Shown here: piece after piece, positions 15,179 through 21,489 of the stretch
How the letters are laid out: every line of letters begins with the position of its first letter
Numbering within the stretch: the first letter of the stretch is position 1
DNA from: an uncultured Roseibium sp.
GTDB lineage: Bacteria > Pseudomonadota > Alphaproteobacteria > Rhizobiales > Stappiaceae
Length of the DNA: 64,000 bases
Assembly (NCBI RefSeq): GCF_947496995.1
Contig: NZ_CANMFD010000005.1
Span: 124,001 to 188,000, forward strand
Reading direction: 5' to 3'
Notes under the pieces: model-generated
Databases searched by the model: none
Told to the model about the DNA's origin: nothing
Seen by the model: the letters and a program-made list of their open reading frames with translations, nothing else
Program-made: the position numbers and the translations under genes

Positions 15179-15263
15179 GCCCCTCTGGCGGAATTGGTAG
15201 ACGCGCGGGATTCAAAATCCCGTTTCTTCGGAAGTGCCGGTTCGATTCCGGCGGGGGGCACCA
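15179..15263 (+). tRNA. tRNA-Leu (anticodon CAA)
   Basis: The 85-nt gene folds into a type II (long variable arm) tRNA. The acceptor pairs GCCCCTC with GGGGGGC, followed by discriminator A and an encoded CCA. The anticodon stem CGGGA/TCCCG holds loop TTCAAAA, giving CAA, and the T-arm is GCCGG-TTCGATT-CCGGC. The D-loop has AATTGGTAGA. Its 3' end is repeated at 21396, marking it as an integration site. Confidence 0.96.
15247..15263 (+). repeat. attL-like core: 3' end of tRNA-Leu
   Basis: The 17 bases TCCGGCGGGGGGCACCA, which include part of the T-arm, the 3' acceptor strand and CCA, occur again in direct orientation at 21396-21412. Bases on either side differ between the copies. This is the hallmark of site-specific integration into a tRNA gene that keeps the tRNA intact. 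Confidence 0.85.
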
Positions 15264-15646
15264 CTTCAATATTTTTTTCAATAAATTCAGCTGCCCATGT
15301 TTCGAAATTGTCCCACTTTGAAGGGCGTTTCGAAAAAGTGGGACATTTCCACCTCGATGAGAGGATCCTCTAGAGGGTTGAATTTCGAGAGTTGCTAGCT
15401 GTTGTGAGATACCTAAAGTCAATTTTCTGGTGCAAAACTTAGGTCCTTTCATGAGAAGAGGACGCTGGAGCCTCTGCGTGTAAAGAGAATGAAGATGGGC
15501 AAAATTGTATTCATGCAATGCGTCCTCATTCCAGAAATCAGAGAAAATTATTATTTTCCAGCATGCTTGAGCACAAGCGCAGAGCGGTACACTACTCCTT
15601 TAGTAAGATTTTATTTTGACACGCTAAGTATACAACTATGCACTAG
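15264..15646. other. Left end of the tRNA-Leu island, no gene supported
   Basis: This AT-rich 383-bp stretch lies between tRNA-Leu and the insertion sequence. It carries an 11-bp inverted repeat (15309-15345) and otherwise only short unsupported frames. An integrase gene would be expected here but is absent. It ends at CTAG (15643-15646), the left target copy of the IS. Confidence 0.6.
15309..15345. repeat. Inverted repeat TGTCCCACTTT/AAAGTGGGACA at the island left end
   Basis: Perfect 11-bp arms are separated by 15 nt. The GTGGGACA core recurs three times at the right end of the island (21304, 21337 and, inverted, 21351). Two copies of TTTCGAAA interleave with it. Arm-type binding sites for a tyrosine recombinase are the likely meaning, which is inference. 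Confidence 0.6.
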
Positions 15647-16520
15647 TCCGTGTGGACGAATTGACTCAGGTATAAGTTTTGGGATTCCGGATTTGATTTC
15701 AAAGTGATTCATTGGTTGCCGACGTGATTTGGAGGTCGGCGATGTGTACCAAGATGACAGAACGGGATTTCGAACTGGCACTGGAGGTTTTCCGGGCTTG
15801 CTTGCCACGGGTTGGCGCGAAGGCAAAGAATGACCGTCTGTTTCTCGAGGCACTGCATTATTTCACGCTTCACAACATCTCCTGGCGCGCTTTGCCCGAG
15901 CGGTTCGGCAACTGGAACAGCGTCTGGAAACGCTTCGACCGTCTTGGCAGGGCCGGTGTGTTCGAGGACTATTTTTCCATTCTGGCCGGGCTTGATGAAG
16001 GCGCGCATCTGATCGCCATGTTCGACAGTACCGTCATTCGCGCCCATGTCTCGGCGGCCGGCGCCAAAAGGGGGCAGGAAGGTCAAGCGCTCGGGCGTTC
16101 GCGCGGCGGGTTCGGAACAAAAATCCATCTGAAAACGGATCGGAACGGCCTGACGCTTGGCTTTGAACTGACCGGTGGCGAAGCCTCTGACAGCAAGCAG
16201 TTTACGGATCTCATGGAAACCGGCCCCGACATCAAGCACCGGGCCATCGTTGCCGACAAGGGCTATGACAGCAATGCCAATCGAGAGGCTGCGCGAAAGG
16301 CAGGGGCTGTCCCGGTCATTCCATACAAATCAAACCGGCGCGAGATTCCCAGGCACTTCGCCAAAGCGCTCTACCGCGGCCGCGCACGCATCGAACAAAT
16401 GATGGGGAAGATCAAACGCTTTAAACGCGTCGCCCTGCGTTGCGAGAAAACCGCCAGAAACTTCCGGTCCATCGTCGCAATTGCCGCAGCCTTCATCTTG
16501 ATCAAATCCGTCCACACGGC
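15647..16520 (+). mobile_element. IS5-family insertion sequence, complete
   Basis: The element is 874 bp. Its ends form inverted repeats: the left starts TCCGTGTGGACGAATTGA and the right, read inward, GCCGTGTGGACGGATTTGA. Both ends are flanked by CTAG (15643-15646 and 16521-16524), matching the 4-bp YTAR target preference of the IS5 group. It contains one transposase gene that reads to the right end. It sits inside the tRNA-Leu island, just upstream of a truncated resolvase. Confidence 0.8.
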
Positions 16521-16524
16521 CTAG
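15742..16524 (+). CDS. IS5-family DDE transposase
   Basis: The protein is 260 residues from the ATG at 15742, which has GGAGGT 5 nt upstream; the longer in-frame start at 15712 has no such site. It has the IS5-type N-terminal domain and a DDE core: Asp in MFDSTVIRAH, Asp in VADKGYDS and Glu in RARIEQMMGKIKRFKR. The frame is unbroken, so it could be active. The stop codon TAG (16522-16524) lies in the flanking CTAG target copy rather than in the element, so the host site supplies it. Confidence 0.93.
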   Translation: MCTKMTERDFELALEVFRACLPRVGAKAKNDRLFLEALHYFTLHNISWRALPERFGNWNSVWKRFDRLGRAGVFEDYFSILAGLDEGAHLIAMFDSTVIRAHVSAAGAKRGQEGQALGRSRGGFGTKIHLKTDRNGLTLGFELTGGEASDSKQFTDLMETGPDIKHRAIVADKGYDSNANREAARKAGAVPVIPYKSNRREIPRHFAKALYRGRARIEQMMGKIKRFKRVALRCEKTARNFRSIVAIAAAFILIKSVHTA

Positions 16525-16684
16525 GGCGAAGGCAAAACATCCTGAGAAGTATAGGGGCCGCCCACAGGCGATTGATCCATCACGAGTCAGGGAGCTCAAA
16601 GAAGCTGGATTTGGCGCTTCCGAGATCGCAAAGCGTCTCGGGATTGGGCGGGCGAGCGTATACCGACTGCTTTCAGTGAGGTGA
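16523..16684 (+). pseudogene. C-terminal remnant of a serine resolvase/invertase
   Basis: From the IS right end an in-frame stretch of 53 codons to the TGA at 16682-16684 reads as the C-terminal tail of a Tn3/Hin-type serine recombinase: AKAKHPEKYRGRPQAI, then a helix-turn-helix (EIAKRLGIGRASVYRLL). The catalytic N-terminal domain is missing. The sequence left of the IS does not encode the missing part in any frame I checked, so the 5' portion was lost by more than a simple insertion. Confidence 0.75.
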
Positions 16685-16697
16685 AACTGTGTGAGCT

Positions 16698-17579
16698 CTA
16701 TTTTGCTCTATTATTTAGAATTCTGAGAATGGCCGTGCGTTTATAGTTGAGAAAGAGCCAGTCAGAAATCCTTTGTTCAGCAACAGAACGGTACAGAATA
16801 GCTTTCCAAGAGTTTACACCGTCATCTTCTGCCGCAGTGTTATACAAGTTGATTAAATATTCGTTGAACTGCTTGTTGTTGCTGCAGTAGTCGTCAAAAA
16901 GTGGCAGAGTCCTCCTAGGAGTGTCCCTTATTTTGGACCATTTTTTTGCAGCAAATTCTAAGAAGCTCGTCCTTAATAAGACATTCTTAACGTGAAAATC
17001 CAAGTTAATGTAATGCGGATTCGAAGTGTGGAGTAAGTATTGAATTTTAAATCTTGGTGGACGGGCGCTAGGGTCAAATTCAAGTCTTATAAGAGGTATA
17101 GATAATACGCTGTCGTAGAATGGATGAAGAACACGTGCTCCAGTGCAGTGATCTATTGTCCTATCCCCTCGCTTTTGGTTGCAATCGCAGGCAGGGACCA
17201 AGTTATACGGCAATAAAGCGTAATCAGAGTACTTCTTCTTTGGAAGAAAGTGATCCAGCGTTGTGGGAAAATAACCGCCACACATAGGGCAGGTCTCCCC
17301 TGCCTCAGAATTTCTTTGCTCTCCAATATAGGACAAGCAGTTAGGCGGATTATCGTATAGATAGACTAATTCGTCCTTTTCTTCTTTTGAATTTTTTGAT
17401 TCAAAAATGATATTTGGGCTTCCAGAGCAGGAGTCATAATACTTTTCAATTCTTTCGGCGCGAAGAGAGAACTTTAGGAGCTTGGGATATGATTTCAACT
17501 TGCTATTCGTGCAAGCCTCTTTAATATAATCAGTTCTTGGGTCTATTGGTTTGTCAATATTCTTCATTTTTATTAACAA
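16698..17579 (-). CDS. HNH endonuclease, PtuB-like (Septu-type defence)
   Basis: The protein is 293 residues (an ATG at 17567 would give 289). An HNH/zinc-finger nuclease core is clear: C97-P-M-C100-G-G, T-L-D109-H110-F-L-P-K, then N126-L-V-P-A-C131-D-C133-N134-Q-K. This resembles PtuB of Septu systems and the HNH effectors of some retrons. The spacing of the second Cys pair is C-x-C rather than the common C-x2-C. The gene overlaps the 3' end of the ATPase gene, so the two are coupled. Base use is markedly AT-rich compared with the chromosome, suggesting transfer. No reverse transcriptase is present, so a retron is unlikely. Confidence 0.75.
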   Translation of the reverse strand: MLIKMKNIDKPIDPRTDYIKEACTNSKLKSYPKLLKFSLRAERIEKYYDSCSGSPNIIFESKNSKEEKDELVYLYDNPPNCLSYIGEQRNSEAGETCPMCGGYFPTTLDHFLPKKKYSDYALLPYNLVPACDCNQKRGDRTIDHCTGARVLHPFYDSVLSIPLIRLEFDPSARPPRFKIQYLLHTSNPHYINLDFHVKNVLLRTSFLEFAAKKWSKIRDTPRRTLPLFDDYCSNNKQFNEYLINLYNTAAEDDGVNSWKAILYRSVAEQRISDWLFLNYKRTAILRILNNRAK

Positions 17580-19197
17580 GTTTAGAAATCAAATCTTCAG
17601 AGGCGACCGAGCGGAGAATCTTCTCAATTGGCTCGCCGTGGTCATCAAAGCTTTCAGCATACTCTAAAGCCCGTCTGCGAGTTGTGGCCAATTCATCTTC
17701 CCCGAACACGAATAGCGAGAGCATTCCGATGTCGGCGCCGAATGTTTTCATGCGTGGCTTTTGTATTTCTACCCGTTTTTCAAATTCGTTTCGAATAATA
17801 TGAACCATATTCTCTTCCACACATCGTACCACGTAAGCAGAGTGAGTAGCGATGACTGAGATTGATCCGGAAAGTTCGCAAATCTTATGCAGAGAGCCCA
17901 TTAAAGCATCAATGTATTGAGGGTGTAGAAACACCTCTGGTTCGTCAAAGAGTAATAAAGATCCATTTTCAACACTTTCTGCCGAATAGGTGCAAAAACG
18001 TACATAGGCTTCTTCTCCAGAACTTAAGTCATCAGGGGTATCGTGAAAAATACCTTTCGTTGCATCTATATTTTCGACTAATTCTTCCGGAGTTGTTTCG
18101 ACTATGTTTTCTGATTTTGTTTGGAAGATAAGACTGTCTGAATTAAAGTATGGCGTTTGGATGGAGAGAATATTTATTGGTCCATAGTGATTGTGTAGTA
18201 TACAGATCGGCCTCTTTGAACCCGATTCTTTGAGAGACTGCTTTAGTATTTCAAAGCGGCTCTGATCAGCGATAAGTCTTCTATTGCTTATCAAATCAAG
18301 GATAATTTCGGCTACACTTGTGGACGATGTAGCGTCGTCGTGTGCAAGACTTAGCACCCTATAACCTGAGGTTCGGCGCTTCAGTGTCTGGATAGGAAAA
18401 ATCTTCGAAGCTCGAGTTCCAGAATAAAAAGCGACAACTCTGCTTGGGTGAAAATTACCAGTCCAGCTTCCGAACGAACTATCAAGCGCCTGTTTTGCAA
18501 TATGCCTTAACGTTTGACTTTTTCCGCAACCATTCTTTCCTATTAGAACTACGATGCGTCTGCCGAGATCGTGTGTGCGACCAAACTGGAAGAAAAAAGA
18601 ATAGTCTCTTCCGTCTTCTATCTCAAAATGACACGTAAATTCAGGTTCGGCTGTATCTATCGCCCTTCTTTCGTTTTCTTTTATTATTTCAATGCCATTC
18701 TCTAAAAGAAAACGCTGCTCAGTGCTTCTAATTAAGTTCTTTTTTATTCTGTTGCGGTGTCTAAGATTCTTTAATTTGCTATTGTTTGGTCCGTATTCTT
18801 GTGTGACTATCAGGTCATTGATTGATAGAAGAAGTTCGATTGCTTGAGAGGTATCCATTTCTTCAAGCAAATTTCGATAGGTGTCCGCACGCGTTGCCAT
18901 AGTGATAAAGGTAAACTTGAACTCAGCAGACTCGACCTCAACAAATGGGCGGTCAGCGAAGTTCTCATTAATTTGTTGAATGACATCAGAGAATTTCACT
19001 ATTCCAGAACCACTTTTGGGTTCAAAATGAATGGTTAGCGGACCAAATTCATGTCGGCGCCTTCCAAAATAGGCATAGCAAGTCTGGTCGTCTCTAAGAA
19101 TAATTAAAGTGTAATTTCGACCACGAAACTCATTCTCTGCATAGCCATAAATTTTGTCGCGACTCTCCGTAGAGATGAAAACCGAAGATTTAGCCAT
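17554..19197 (-). CDS. AAA/ABC-type ATPase, PtuA-like (Septu-type defence)
   Basis: The protein is 547 residues. The C-terminal two thirds form an SMC/ABC-like ATPase: Walker A GKNGCGKS (220-227), signature LSSGE (391-395), Walker B SLLLFDEP (413-420) and switch His in ATHS (His452). The first 210 residues precede the Walker A and match no domain I know; PtuA proteins usually have Walker A near the N-terminus. The gene overlaps the HNH gene by 26 bp. Together they look like a Septu-like anti-phage pair in which the ATPase controls the nuclease, but this is inference from domains and context. It is AT-rich. Confidence 0.72.
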   Translation of the reverse strand: MAKSSVFISTESRDKIYGYAENEFRGRNYTLIILRDDQTCYAYFGRRRHEFGPLTIHFEPKSGSGIVKFSDVIQQINENFADRPFVEVESAEFKFTFITMATRADTYRNLLEEMDTSQAIELLLSINDLIVTQEYGPNNSKLKNLRHRNRIKKNLIRSTEQRFLLENGIEIIKENERRAIDTAEPEFTCHFEIEDGRDYSFFFQFGRTHDLGRRIVVLIGKNGCGKSQTLRHIAKQALDSSFGSWTGNFHPSRVVAFYSGTRASKIFPIQTLKRRTSGYRVLSLAHDDATSSTSVAEIILDLISNRRLIADQSRFEILKQSLKESGSKRPICILHNHYGPINILSIQTPYFNSDSLIFQTKSENIVETTPEELVENIDATKGIFHDTPDDLSSGEEAYVRFCTYSAESVENGSLLLFDEPEVFLHPQYIDALMGSLHKICELSGSISVIATHSAYVVRCVEENMVHIIRNEFEKRVEIQKPRMKTFGADIGMLSLFVFGEDELATTRRRALEYAESFDDHGEPIEKILRSVASEDLISKLVNKNEEY

Positions 19198-19256
19198 ATT
19201 TATTTGTTAGTTCCTGTAACAAGAGCAGGATTTGAAGACTTCTTCGCCAAATATTT

Positions 19257-20321
19257 TTAGGTTTGTGAGTTTTCAGTTTGCTGATGAATGAGTCCATCAG
19301 CTTTCAGTCGATCCAACGCTGCCGTGACTGCTGCTCTCGGAAAACTGTCCCGCTTATGGTCGTTCCATGCCTCCAATGCTTCTGACATTTCTGGCTGGGT
19401 CGTAATGCCCTCGGATACAGATAGGAAGTGAACGCTCGACAGTAGCTCCATACCGTAGGGCGTTTCATAGCCATCGATCAGAAGTGAAAGCTTTGAGACT
19501 ATGTGGCTTGTATCGATGCCTTTCGATTTCAAAAACTCGTCGGCAGCAGCATAAGTTGCTGGTGTTACGACTACGGTTTTTTCCTCGCTGCTATAACCAT
19601 GGATATAGCGTTTGTTCTCCATCGCTTTGAAAGCGTTGTGCAGTGTTTCGGAGTATGGTCCGAACTGTTGTTTTGAGAACTTCAGCCCAAAGTCGCTCCC
19701 AAAGACCTGAAGGAAGTATGCAAGTTTTTGCGCGGTAAGGCGCGTGAGGTGGCCGCCGAAAAATTTCTCAAGTTCAGCAAACGCTACCATCATCGTTGCA
19801 CGTCCCACAGTTAAATCATTAGGGACGGACACCTGCTCCGGTTTCATTGTGTCAGCCACGGGGGCAAACACGACGAACTTCACCTCAGGTAGTTCTGAAA
19901 GGCTCTGCTCGATAAGAGGTCTAACCTCCGACCAATCCAAACCACCATTGCCGCACCCCAGCGGCGGCAGTGCGACTGACTGGATTCCAAGCGCCCTGAC
20001 TTGGCATACAAAATCTTTCAATCCATCCTGAACATATTCGATTTTGGATTTTGCTCGCCAATGCTGTTTGGTTGGAAAATTGATTAGGTATCGATGTTTT
20101 CCATCGCCGAGAAAGTCGTTGTTCTCAAAAACAAACATGCGCCCCGGCGAAATTTTGTTTTCGTCGCAGAGCTTTTTGTATGCCTTGAAGTTTTCTGGCC
20201 AGCGCCGTTTGAATTCCAACGCTACGCCTTTGCCCATCACACCAACGCAGTTGACTGTGTTCACAATCGCCTCGGTAGGCTCTTCGAACATGTCGCCGTT
20301 TTTATATTCGATGGTCATCAT
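19257..20321 (-). CDS. darG: DarG: macro-domain antitoxin of the DarTG system
   Basis: The protein is 354 residues. The N-terminal macro domain (about 1-155) shows AIVNTVNCVGVMGKGVALEFK (19-38), NFPTKQHWRAKS (81-92, with Lys85 at the place of the DarG catalytic lysine) and PPLGCGNGGLDW (119-130). The C-terminal 190 residues match the extra domain of longer DarG proteins, which binds and blocks DarT. DarG removes ADP-ribose from thymidine in DNA. It directly follows darT (TGA then ATG, no gap), and either of the first two Met codons may be the start. Confidence 0.9.
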   Translation of the reverse strand: MMTIEYKNGDMFEEPTEAIVNTVNCVGVMGKGVALEFKRRWPENFKAYKKLCDENKISPGRMFVFENNDFLGDGKHRYLINFPTKQHWRAKSKIEYVQDGLKDFVCQVRALGIQSVALPPLGCGNGGLDWSEVRPLIEQSLSELPEVKFVVFAPVADTMKPEQVSVPNDLTVGRATMMVAFAELEKFFGGHLTRLTAQKLAYFLQVFGSDFGLKFSKQQFGPYSETLHNAFKAMENKRYIHGYSSEEKTVVVTPATYAAADEFLKSKGIDTSHIVSKLSLLIDGYETPYGMELLSSVHFLSVSEGITTQPEMSEALEAWNDHKRDSFPRAAVTAALDRLKADGLIHQQTENSQT

Positions 20322-21038
20322 TCAAAAATAACATCCGGGTTTGACATACACAGGGATGTTTGCACCTGACTCGTTGATCCAGCCTTGAACGGTTGCAAGG
20401 TGTGCGTCGTTTTTCAGTATGATGCACAAAACCTCATCCATACTCAAATAGTCCTTCACCATAAACTCTGCCATGCGACGTTTGCTGCGCATCTGGTGCT
20501 CTACCGGTTCATCGCGGTCGTGTTGCCATTTGCATACGCCGGTGTAGCCAATCTCTGTGATGATGGCTTTCTTTGGCGTATCGTCAAAAAGTGTCCACTG
20601 GATGTGTGTCGAGAGTTTTTCTGGCTGATTTTCGTAGACCGGCGGGATGCCAGAATTACAGGCGATATCAGTAAACCAGCAGGTGCGCCCGCCTTCAAAA
20701 AGAGTCGCAGGTTTCACGACAAGATATGCGACATCTTGCATCTGTGCAGTCCCAAGATCCTTACCTTCGGGATCTATCAGCCGAACATTTCCAGCGTGGA
20801 TCGTGTAAGCCATTTTTGTGACCGGCGAGAAATAGAAAGGCACAAAATCATTGACGTTCGAATTGCATGGTGTCGTGAACAGAGCTGTTCCGCGACGTTG
20901 TACAATGTCGTTGAATGATATCCGAAAGCCGGGCTGCATATCTTTATGATTTTTGGCAAAAGCCCTGCCATCCGCGAGATATCTCTGCAGATTTTGAAAA
21001 TACGTCATTCTAAAAAGAAAACGGTCGGGCACAGCCAA
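20322..21038 (-). CDS. darT: DarT: DNA thymidine ADP-ribosyltransferase toxin (DUF4433)
   Basis: The protein is 238 residues. It has the DarT N-terminal NAD-site region (FRMTYFQNLQRYLADG, residues 9-24), the VPFYFSP block (66-72) and KRRMAEFMVKD with Glu191 as the expected catalytic residue. DarT modifies thymidine in single-stranded DNA and blocks replication, including that of phages. The start is TTG at 21038 or GTG at 21032, because the ATG at 21008 would leave the NAD motif without its first strand. Many DarT proteins have His in the first motif; here it is Arg10. Confidence 0.87.
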   Translation of the reverse strand: MAVPDRFLFRMTYFQNLQRYLADGRAFAKNHKDMQPGFRISFNDIVQRRGTALFTTPCNSNVNDFVPFYFSPVTKMAYTIHAGNVRLIDPEGKDLGTAQMQDVAYLVVKPATLFEGGRTCWFTDIACNSGIPPVYENQPEKLSTHIQWTLFDDTPKKAIITEIGYTGVCKWQHDRDEPVEHQMRSKRRMAEFMVKDYLSMDEVLCIILKNDAHLATVQGWINESGANIPVYVKPGCYF

Positions 21039-21147
21039 ATATCGCCTTTGATCTTAGATGCTATCCGGTAGCATCAACGAAAAATTGTGTCTACGCTTCC
21101 GACCTCCGCTTGACTACAGATGCAGCTAAGTCGCTGAATCATTTGAC

Positions 21148-21189
21148 TTTTGCCAAATTACGCTTATTTTCAGACGGGATTTGGCAAAA
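21148..21189. promoter_or_regulatory. Inverted repeat upstream of darTG, candidate operator
   Basis: Perfect 11-bp arms TTTTGCCAAAT and ATTTGGCAAAA are 20 nt apart, 110-150 bp before the darT start. The symmetry and place suit a regulator site for the toxin-antitoxin operon. No DNA-binding domain is evident in DarT or DarG, so the binder is unknown. Confidence 0.45.
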
Positions 21190-21303
21190 ATGAATGATAT
21201 CAATAGGTTGTATTGTGTTCGGGGTCATGGATGGCAATAGGCTGTTTTGGCGTCATATCACTTTGGCTGCGCTGGTGAATTTCCAACGAAATCGCTCAAA
21301 TCG

Positions 21304-21359
21304 GTGGGACACTGATCCCGAAAAATAGCGGAAACAGTGGGACAATTTCCTGTCCCACT
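21304..21359. repeat. GTGGGACA repeats at the island right end
   Basis: GTGGGACA occurs at 21304-21311 and 21337-21344, and inverted at 21351-21358. The last two form a perfect 9-bp hairpin (AGTGGGACA, ATTTCC loop, TGTCCCACT). The same motif pair lies next to the left att copy. Recombinase arm sites are the likely role. Confidence 0.6.
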
Positions 21360-21395
21360 TTGAGCTAAGTCCTTGTATTAATTAAATGCGCGTGG

Positions 21396-21412
21396 TCCGG
21401 CGGGGGGCACCA
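21396..21412 (+). repeat. attR-like copy of the tRNA-Leu 3' end
   Basis: These 17 bases repeat the tRNA-Leu 3' end (15247-15263) exactly and in the same orientation. No other part of a tRNA precedes them. They mark the right boundary of the 6.1-kb island, after which GC-rich chromosomal sequence resumes. Confidence 0.85.
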
Positions 21413-21420
21413 TTATTCCG

Positions 21421-21489
21421 GCGCTATCGCCCTTCGGGCTACTTGAGCGCTGGGTTTCGCGCCACTGCCCTCCGGGCAGTTCGAGCGCG
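21421..21489. repeat. Two tandem imperfect 31-bp palindromic units
   Basis: Units at 21421-21451 and 21459-21489 share about two thirds of their bases. Each can fold through outer GCGC arms and an inner GCCC/GGGC stem with a short loop. They lie directly outside the right att copy, so before integration they would have stood about 10 bp after tRNA-Leu. They may be intergenic palindromic repeats or the original terminator region of the tRNA. Confidence 0.5.

Follow-up and report, generated by a model that had tools for sequence, protein, structure and literature searches.

How does a set of defence genes come to lie between two exact copies of a tRNA 3' end when no integrase gene accompanies it? 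This question is raised by a 64,000-nucleotide stretch of the genome of an uncultured Roseibium sp. (RefSeq assembly GCF_947496995.1, contig NZ_CANMFD010000005.1, positions 124,001 to 188,000, here called the window), in which a tRNA-Leu(CAA) gene is followed by a 6.1-kb unit holding an insertion sequence (IS) of the IS5 family, a serine resolvase remnant, a Septu-like AAA ATPase and HNH gene pair, and darTG (Table 1). We studied the unit in the single genome of its host species (15 contigs). Sequence comparison suggests, with a probability of about 0.83, that it is the internal-deletion remnant of a tyrosine-integrase genomic island inserted at the tRNA-Leu(CAA) 3' end.

A preliminary description of this DNA, made from its letters without database searches, had reported an exact repeat of the 17-bp tRNA end, an AT-rich middle, a size of 6.1 kb, the gene list given above and the absence of an integrase. 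All of this was borne out. The core TCCGGCGGGGGGCACCA occurs twice in forward and never in reverse orientation in the 5,464,113 bases of the genome, and its backwards control not at all; by our own estimate, assuming even base composition, such a 17-mer repeat within 6.5 kb would arise by chance with odds of about 1e-6, and with only two genomic copies a chance repeat was rejected. The GC content of the unit is 0.458 against 0.623 to the left of the tRNA and 0.610 to the right of the unit within the window, where 1-kb windows outside the unit range from 0.54 to 0.67, and the size could be refined to the inserted interval in Table 1. Profile and homology matches agreed with the gene list. No tyrosine integrase was recognised in the unit, as its five large open reading frames (ORFs) belong to other families and a six-frame search with 33 related integrases gave a best E-value of 0.07; the unit thus lacks a recognised integrase of its own, by which an autonomous tRNA genomic island is defined.

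The feature that proved key was absent from the preliminary description, namely inverted GTCCCAC sites at both ends of the unit, with five heptamers in total, three of them between 21304 and 21361, and all intact. Because of their position and conservation, these are most likely arm-type binding sites of an integrase. Of 397 genomes of the order, three had the strict site pair, among them Roseibium hamelinense ATCC BAA-252, in which a 19.7-kb island occupies the same tRNA-Leu(CAA) (NZ_VLLF01000010.1, about 138498–158251). Its cores lie at 158235 and, with one mismatch in 17, at 138498, and each has its own site pair, with the arm layout seen in the window unit. The island encodes a tyrosine integrase (P0001, our query in searches for related integrases), a type III methyltransferase and restriction enzyme (Mod/Res), AbiD, a helicase, a nucleotidyltransferase and an intact serine resolvase; a small gene preceding the integrase looks AlpA-like by eye.

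Only three matches, all collinear, were found by BLASTN between the unit and the R. hamelinense island (E-values of 4e-9, 2e-25 and 3e-23): the left end, the resolvase remnant (16521–16665, 77% nucleotide identity) and the right end. The middle match starts at the first base after the IS5 element, and the right end terminates in ATGCGCGTGG, which also precedes the core in R. hamelinense. In the right end, the heptamers agree between the two elements at 21/21 positions, against 56/72 for the remaining positions (Fisher p 0.011). The unit resembles the R. hamelinense island in tRNA, core, arm layout, resolvase C-terminus and a cargo slot beside attR, and differs from it in size, in the missing integrase and type III restriction-modification genes, and in cargo. 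The idea that tRNA-Leu(CAA) genes generally have such arm sites was rejected, given that the core-plus-arm pattern matched only the unit's own genome among 385 genomes of the class, a set to which R. hamelinense does not belong.

Table 1. Features of the tRNA-Leu(CAA) locus and the inserted unit (window positions).
Feature	Position	Strand	Basis or remark
tRNA-Leu(CAA), integration target, with the attL core as its 3' end	15179..15263	+	ARAGORN
attL core TCCGGCGGGGGGCACCA, 17 bp	15247..15263	+	direct repeat
Inserted unit, 6,149 bp including one core copy	15264..21412	unstranded	direct repeat and short intervals in 4/24 relatives
Left end, 77% identical to attL end of R. hamelinense island	15272..15348	+	BLASTN
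Left inverted pair TGTCCCACTTT (15309–15319) / AAAGTGGGACA (15335–15345)	15309..15345	unstranded	45 bp past tRNA end; putative integrase arm sites
CTAG flanking IS5, left copy (other copy 16521–16524)	15643..15646	unstranded	read from sequence; possible target duplication
IS5-family element	15647..16520	+	transposase matches, inverted repeat; boundaries read by eye; at putative deletion junction
Serine resolvase C-terminal remnant	16521..16684	+	86% amino acid identity over 50 residues to intact resolvase
HNH protein, PDC-M01B family (Septu PtuB-like)	16698..17579	-	PADLOC match
AAA ATPase, PDC-M01A family (Septu PtuA-like)	17554..19197	-	profile matches
darG, DNA ADP-ribosyl glycohydrolase antitoxin	19257..20321	-	NF048014 375 bits (cut-off 250), PF01661
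darT, DNA ADP-ribosyltransferase toxin	20322..21038	-	PF14487 100 bits (cut-off 22.5); TTG start as listed
Right end, 84% identical to R. hamelinense attR end	21298..21395	+	BLASTN
Right arm-type site GTGGGAC	21304..21310	-	sequence
Right arm-type site GTGGGAC	21337..21343	-	sequence
Right arm-type site TGTCCCACTTT	21351..21361	+	sequence
attR core, second copy of tRNA 3' end	21396..21412	+	direct repeat

The ancestral island would have entered by site-specific recombination at the 17-bp core in the tRNA-Leu(CAA) 3' end. Its fuller counterpart is the type seen in R. hamelinense, which runs from attL arms through an inward integrase, type III restriction-modification genes, a serine resolvase and a slot for defence cargo to attR arms. 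An internal deletion then probably took out everything from the left arm region up to the final 50 or so residues of the resolvase, and the integrase with it; the single IS5 element now marks the junction. Left behind were the two cores, the arm-type sites and the cargo slot, which holds the Septu-like AAA+HNH pair and darTG. Given that the integrase lies inside the arm pair and not beside it (by about 3.2 kb in R. hamelinense, 0.8 kb in Nioella and 13 kb in Pacificoceanicola), a deletion could take it and yet spare both ends. The IS may have caused this deletion. With CTAG as its target, the CTAG on both sides is expected whether it did or not, and its single copy in the host genome neither shows nor excludes recombination between IS copies as the cause.

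The same locus was compared in 24 same-genus genomes from the first search. In 4 of these, the VTT gene region of the right flank begins 65–124 bp past the tRNA, a short and empty interval, whereas 13/24 hold 0.9–15 kb of other DNA there, with mostly metabolic or regulatory genes (judged by eye from translations) of normal GC (valued for 12 of the 13 inserts); in the remaining 7/24, the VTT flank was unreached or unrecognised in the stretch taken. None of 20 relatives' loci scanned repeated at least 11 bases of the tRNA end in the stretch taken. The interval is filled variously, and therefore seems variable for several reasons, with the core repeat shown, among these loci, by the window unit alone. 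The preliminary description had called for a search for an empty site, and had held that its reading would fall if all relatives carried the same genes here with normal base composition or if an unoccupied site lacked the 17-bp core; empty sites exist and keep the core at the tRNA end, and none of the relatives examined had the unit genes here. A cargo common to the genus was likewise rejected: DarG was found in 4/45 genus genomes (the three others 40–48% identical) and the ATPase in 2/45 (the other one 31% identical), a rarity from which the cargo seems non-ancestral. To the right of attR, the sequence resembles that directly after the tRNA in three relatives (G022, G024 and G017). A repeat similar to repetitive extragenic palindromic (REP) sequences, GCGCTATCGCCCTTCGGGCTACTTGAGCGC, lies there at 21413–21455 and is present after tRNA-Leu in some relatives.

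One relative (G013) has an integrase-like gene, recognised by eye, behind a 53-nt tRNA-Leu end (L046:1104-3443), where another integration used the same tRNA-Leu 3' part, and on the same contig a complete tRNA-Leu beside a PF00589 integrase. Another (G010:C16:179088-179600) has, downstream of the same tRNA-Leu, a low-GC insert of 3.5 kb that encodes a short tyrosine recombinase (218-aa ORF), with no core repeat seen. A third (G012:C29:258491-259062) holds a P0001-like integrase in pieces of 52–72% identity with internal stops, a decayed relative within the genus.

Beyond the genus, the site pair occurred at 31 loci in the genome contig collection, which we take to be 19 in Alphaproteobacteria, eleven in other groups and one in an unclassified metagenome-assembled genome. 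At 13/31, all within the 19 alphaproteobacterial loci, the pair stands 45–47 bp beyond the 3' end of a tRNA gene, which is tRNA-Phe in seven cases, tRNA-Leu(CAA) in two, tRNA-Leu(CAG) in one, tRNA-Met in two and tRNA-Cys in one, the thirteenth locus being that of Pacificoceanicola. The 12 loci in other groups or in the unclassified genome have no tRNA in the stretch taken and look like chance palindromes. Sites off this layout were a pair 261 bp past a tRNA-Ser 3' end in G011 (L120:6888-6923) and two Devosia pairs 225 and 251 bp from the tRNA 5' side (L125:9996-10030, L126:10019-10053); the tRNA genes in these three cases are tRNA-Ser or tRNA-Pro. One pair in G024:C51 also falls outside the layout, with no tRNA in 19.9 kb; there, GTCCCAC-like sites of either orientation are clustered (L121:3047-5677).

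A looser pattern run over 63 chosen genomes gave 26 sites. For 13 of them, the contig also encodes a P0001-like integrase (two partial, one broken), at most 14 kb away. The contig-edge sites of both Henriciella, Mesorhizobium composti and Tateyamaria were unscorable, and in Jannaschia a broken integrase piece lies 11.5 kb from the site, at the contig end. We gathered 33 related integrases, 10 via the site pattern and hence biased, 17 from the 21 matches of the P0001 search (leaving out one P0001 duplicate and three broken pieces) and 6 from IMG/VR; further matched integrases were kept out of the tree, which served for grouping only and has long branches and ten unresolved forks. GTCCCAC follows the gene within 150 nt in 18/33, and among the 23 integrases found by integrase search alone in 12, the other 11 being without it. 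A pair 0.65–13 kb from the integrase is seen in four cases (R. hamelinense, Nioella, Pacificoceanicola and isolate Mf 1.05b.01), and 11/33 integrases have none. Besides the R. hamelinense island, two-ended elements with an integrase were found in Microvirga (11 kb, tRNA-Leu(CAA)), Ensifer (15.7 kb, tRNA-Met) and Pacificoceanicola (22 kb, tRNA-Phe, plus a resolvase). The window unit is the only one without an integrase among the five elements with both ends visible, a count that hardly informs the frequency of integrase-less copies since most other sites are undelimited. This shared attachment signature was not found in the open-licence papers searched, one of which, on a Shewanella island (PMC8978831), contains the letters gtcccac once.

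Several observations weigh against an origin by internal deletion of such an island, or soften its support. The cargo of the unit is not homologous to that of R. hamelinense, whose island is therefore a parent type and not the direct ancestor. Positions 15349–15646 match nothing beyond the arm region in the compared elements, so the left end of the deletion is not fixed, and the CTAG flanks could be a plain target duplication, in which case the IS entered into, or after, an existing deletion. Binding at the arm sites is proposed from position and conservation only. The two-ended heptamer agreement (35/35 positions vs 113/157 elsewhere, p 3.8e-5) carries a bias at the left end, since it was the left pair that led to R. 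hamelinense, and only the right-end heptamers are a fair test. The match of the attR flank to the post-tRNA sequence of relatives is weaker than it appears because this flank is the REP-like repeat, and the closest relatives (G011 and G020) hold other normal-GC genes at the locus and no empty site. Among the integrases, the grouping of R. hamelinense with Nioella and Pacificoceanicola is weak (support 82/64). Of the 26 looser-pattern sites, the other 13 have no P0001-like integrase on the contig, several of them near contig edges. At one, in Pseudorhodobacter ferrugineus, the pair stands at tRNA-Leu(CAG) at the usual distance, but the genes beyond it look flagellar and the 19.8 kb there contain no related integrase; this orphan end lies at L134:13-97 (tRNA) and L122:19830-19866 (site pair).

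The preliminary description had left two fates for the unit, fixation by loss of its integrase or movement by a recombinase from elsewhere. Loss as the origin is well supported because an integrase-bearing relative at the same tRNA shares the att ends and the resolvase, 4 of 24 intervals are empty, and the cargo is rare in the genus. Movement in trans is only a possibility: the sites are intact, yet the own genome has no P0001-like integrase at E 1e-10 (serine recombinases were not searched) and, with the looser pattern, no second attL-type site pair. That genome has five PF00589 matches, none in the unit among the four of the five listed. The unit is probably immobile at present; it would possibly be mobilisable in trans if a cognate integrase entered, because both cores and all arm-type sites are intact.

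These intact sites also speak for the alternative that survives best, in which the unit is a non-autonomous satellite without an integrase, whose competence is maintained by selection and which P0001-type integrases of other islands or prophages move in trans. Related integrases with the same sites are present in several alphaproteobacterial genera and some IMG/VR contigs, and the cargo is unlike that of the parent type. We nevertheless consider a satellite unlikely, given the lack of a cognate integrase (at E 1e-10) and of a second attL-type pair in the own genome, and as the identity of the arms may predate integrase loss. Nor was a second integrase-less copy delimited with both ends. The one candidate in the same genus, G424, with attL arms at tRNA-Met, was rejected in this role: by eye, its integrase end is cut by an IS3-like insertion (L119:9840-10700), no attR was seen in about 10 kb, and it looks like another island of the clade in decay. 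Phage-inducible chromosomal islands (PICIs) normally carry their own integrase. The unit could, like PICI-like satellites, depend on a helper recombinase, but no phage-interference or packaging genes, by which such satellites are told, were recognised in its large ORFs.

A prophage remnant, with the ends of a temperate phage kept, its middle deleted and an accessory region left, appears improbable. It would fit Pseudovibrio sp. Alg231-02 (L053:8635-11051), where a PtuA/PDC-M01 AAA+HNH pair has phage-like genes (tail, by eye) on one side and, on the other, the same site pair at tRNA-Cys, at the edge of a prophage-like region, as well as the six IMG/VR contigs, which carry 53–57% identical integrases; that AAA+HNH pair is distantly related to that of the unit (37–38% over about 100 residues each). 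Yet the closest full relative, in R. hamelinense, holds restriction, resolvase and Abi genes, ten scanned proteins of this island gave no conjugation or phage structural match, and the five large ORFs of the unit have no phage-interference, packaging or phage structural family in Pfam, NCBIfam and PADLOC (PHROGs was not run). Finally, an ordinary tRNA-downstream variable region filled by homologous recombination or illegitimate gain, with the repeat arising by chance, would suit the 13 relatives with other genes and the 20 loci without a repeated tRNA end, but is very improbable as the core repeat is unique in the genome and, which already contradicts it, the ends are homologous to the integrase-bearing R. 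hamelinense island at the same tRNA.

Turning to gene content, the 380 bp right of the tRNA contain no recognised genes. The IS5 transposase ORF is listed at 15712–16524 and matched NF033580 with 220 bits (cut-off 110). The HNH protein had no Pfam or NCBIfam match, and the adjoining ATPase scored 38.9 bits against NCBIfam PtuA, far under the cut-off of 500; in PADLOC, the pair matched PDC-M01A (3.7e-50), PDC-M01B (2.7e-36) and PtuA (1.9e-21). PDC-M01 is a PADLOC candidate family related to Septu, and the AAA ATPase plus HNH nuclease pair that Septu and PDC-M01 require is present. DarTG is a toxin-antitoxin and phage-defence system, and the unit has its arrangement, an ADP-ribosyltransferase gene adjoining a macrodomain glycohydrolase gene on one strand, darT then darG, with both families matched; DarT differs in scoring 102.7 bits against NF048013, under the cut-off of 150. 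Relatives of DarT and DarG in PDB were 7omv and 5m31, the 7omv match being limited to DarT residues 8–85. Both systems would act against phages, and darTG may protect the cell and make loss of the unit costly, helping its retention. No relaxase or type IV secretion system match was found among the five large ORFs (ORFs of about 200 aa or more were scanned).

Cis-mobilizable elements (CIMEs) keep attL and attR and have lost the genes for integration and transfer (PMC5704250). The unit resembles a CIME in its structural features, as it keeps attL and attR (known from sequence alone, by exact cores and arm-type sites at both ends), has a resolvase remnant as its only trace of recombination functions and no recognised integration genes, and has no transfer genes in its five large ORFs. 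It differs in that its probable parent, a defence island, encodes an integrase and a resolvase and showed no conjugation family in the ten proteins scanned, and in that no tandem partner element was seen at its locus; descent from an integrative and conjugative or an integrative and mobilizable element, and mobilisation in cis, would be suppositions. A second parallel is provided by the genomic islands at ssrA in Dehalococcoides, where 15 islands without an integration module are reported alongside others that have an integrase (PMC3146451). Both kinds of island share one RNA gene in either case, with serine recombinases and ssrA there versus a tyrosine integrase, tRNA-Leu and a single island here.

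We offer only tentatively, as a doubtful extension, that a widespread alphaproteobacterial integrase clade with one attachment grammar (a tRNA-end core, an inverted GTCCCAC pair 45–47 bp beyond it and a second set at the opposite end) may let integrase-less defence islands persist and be moved between species in trans, that is, as defence-carrying satellites. The analysis links the unit to a parent type that occupies the same tRNA and still has its integrase, and it provides, for a clade of alphaproteobacterial integrases, an attachment signature that can be searched for. This signature would separate orphan islands from random accessory genes and match them with the integrases able to move them, so that the fate of integrase-less islands, dead or mobilised in trans, would become directly testable.

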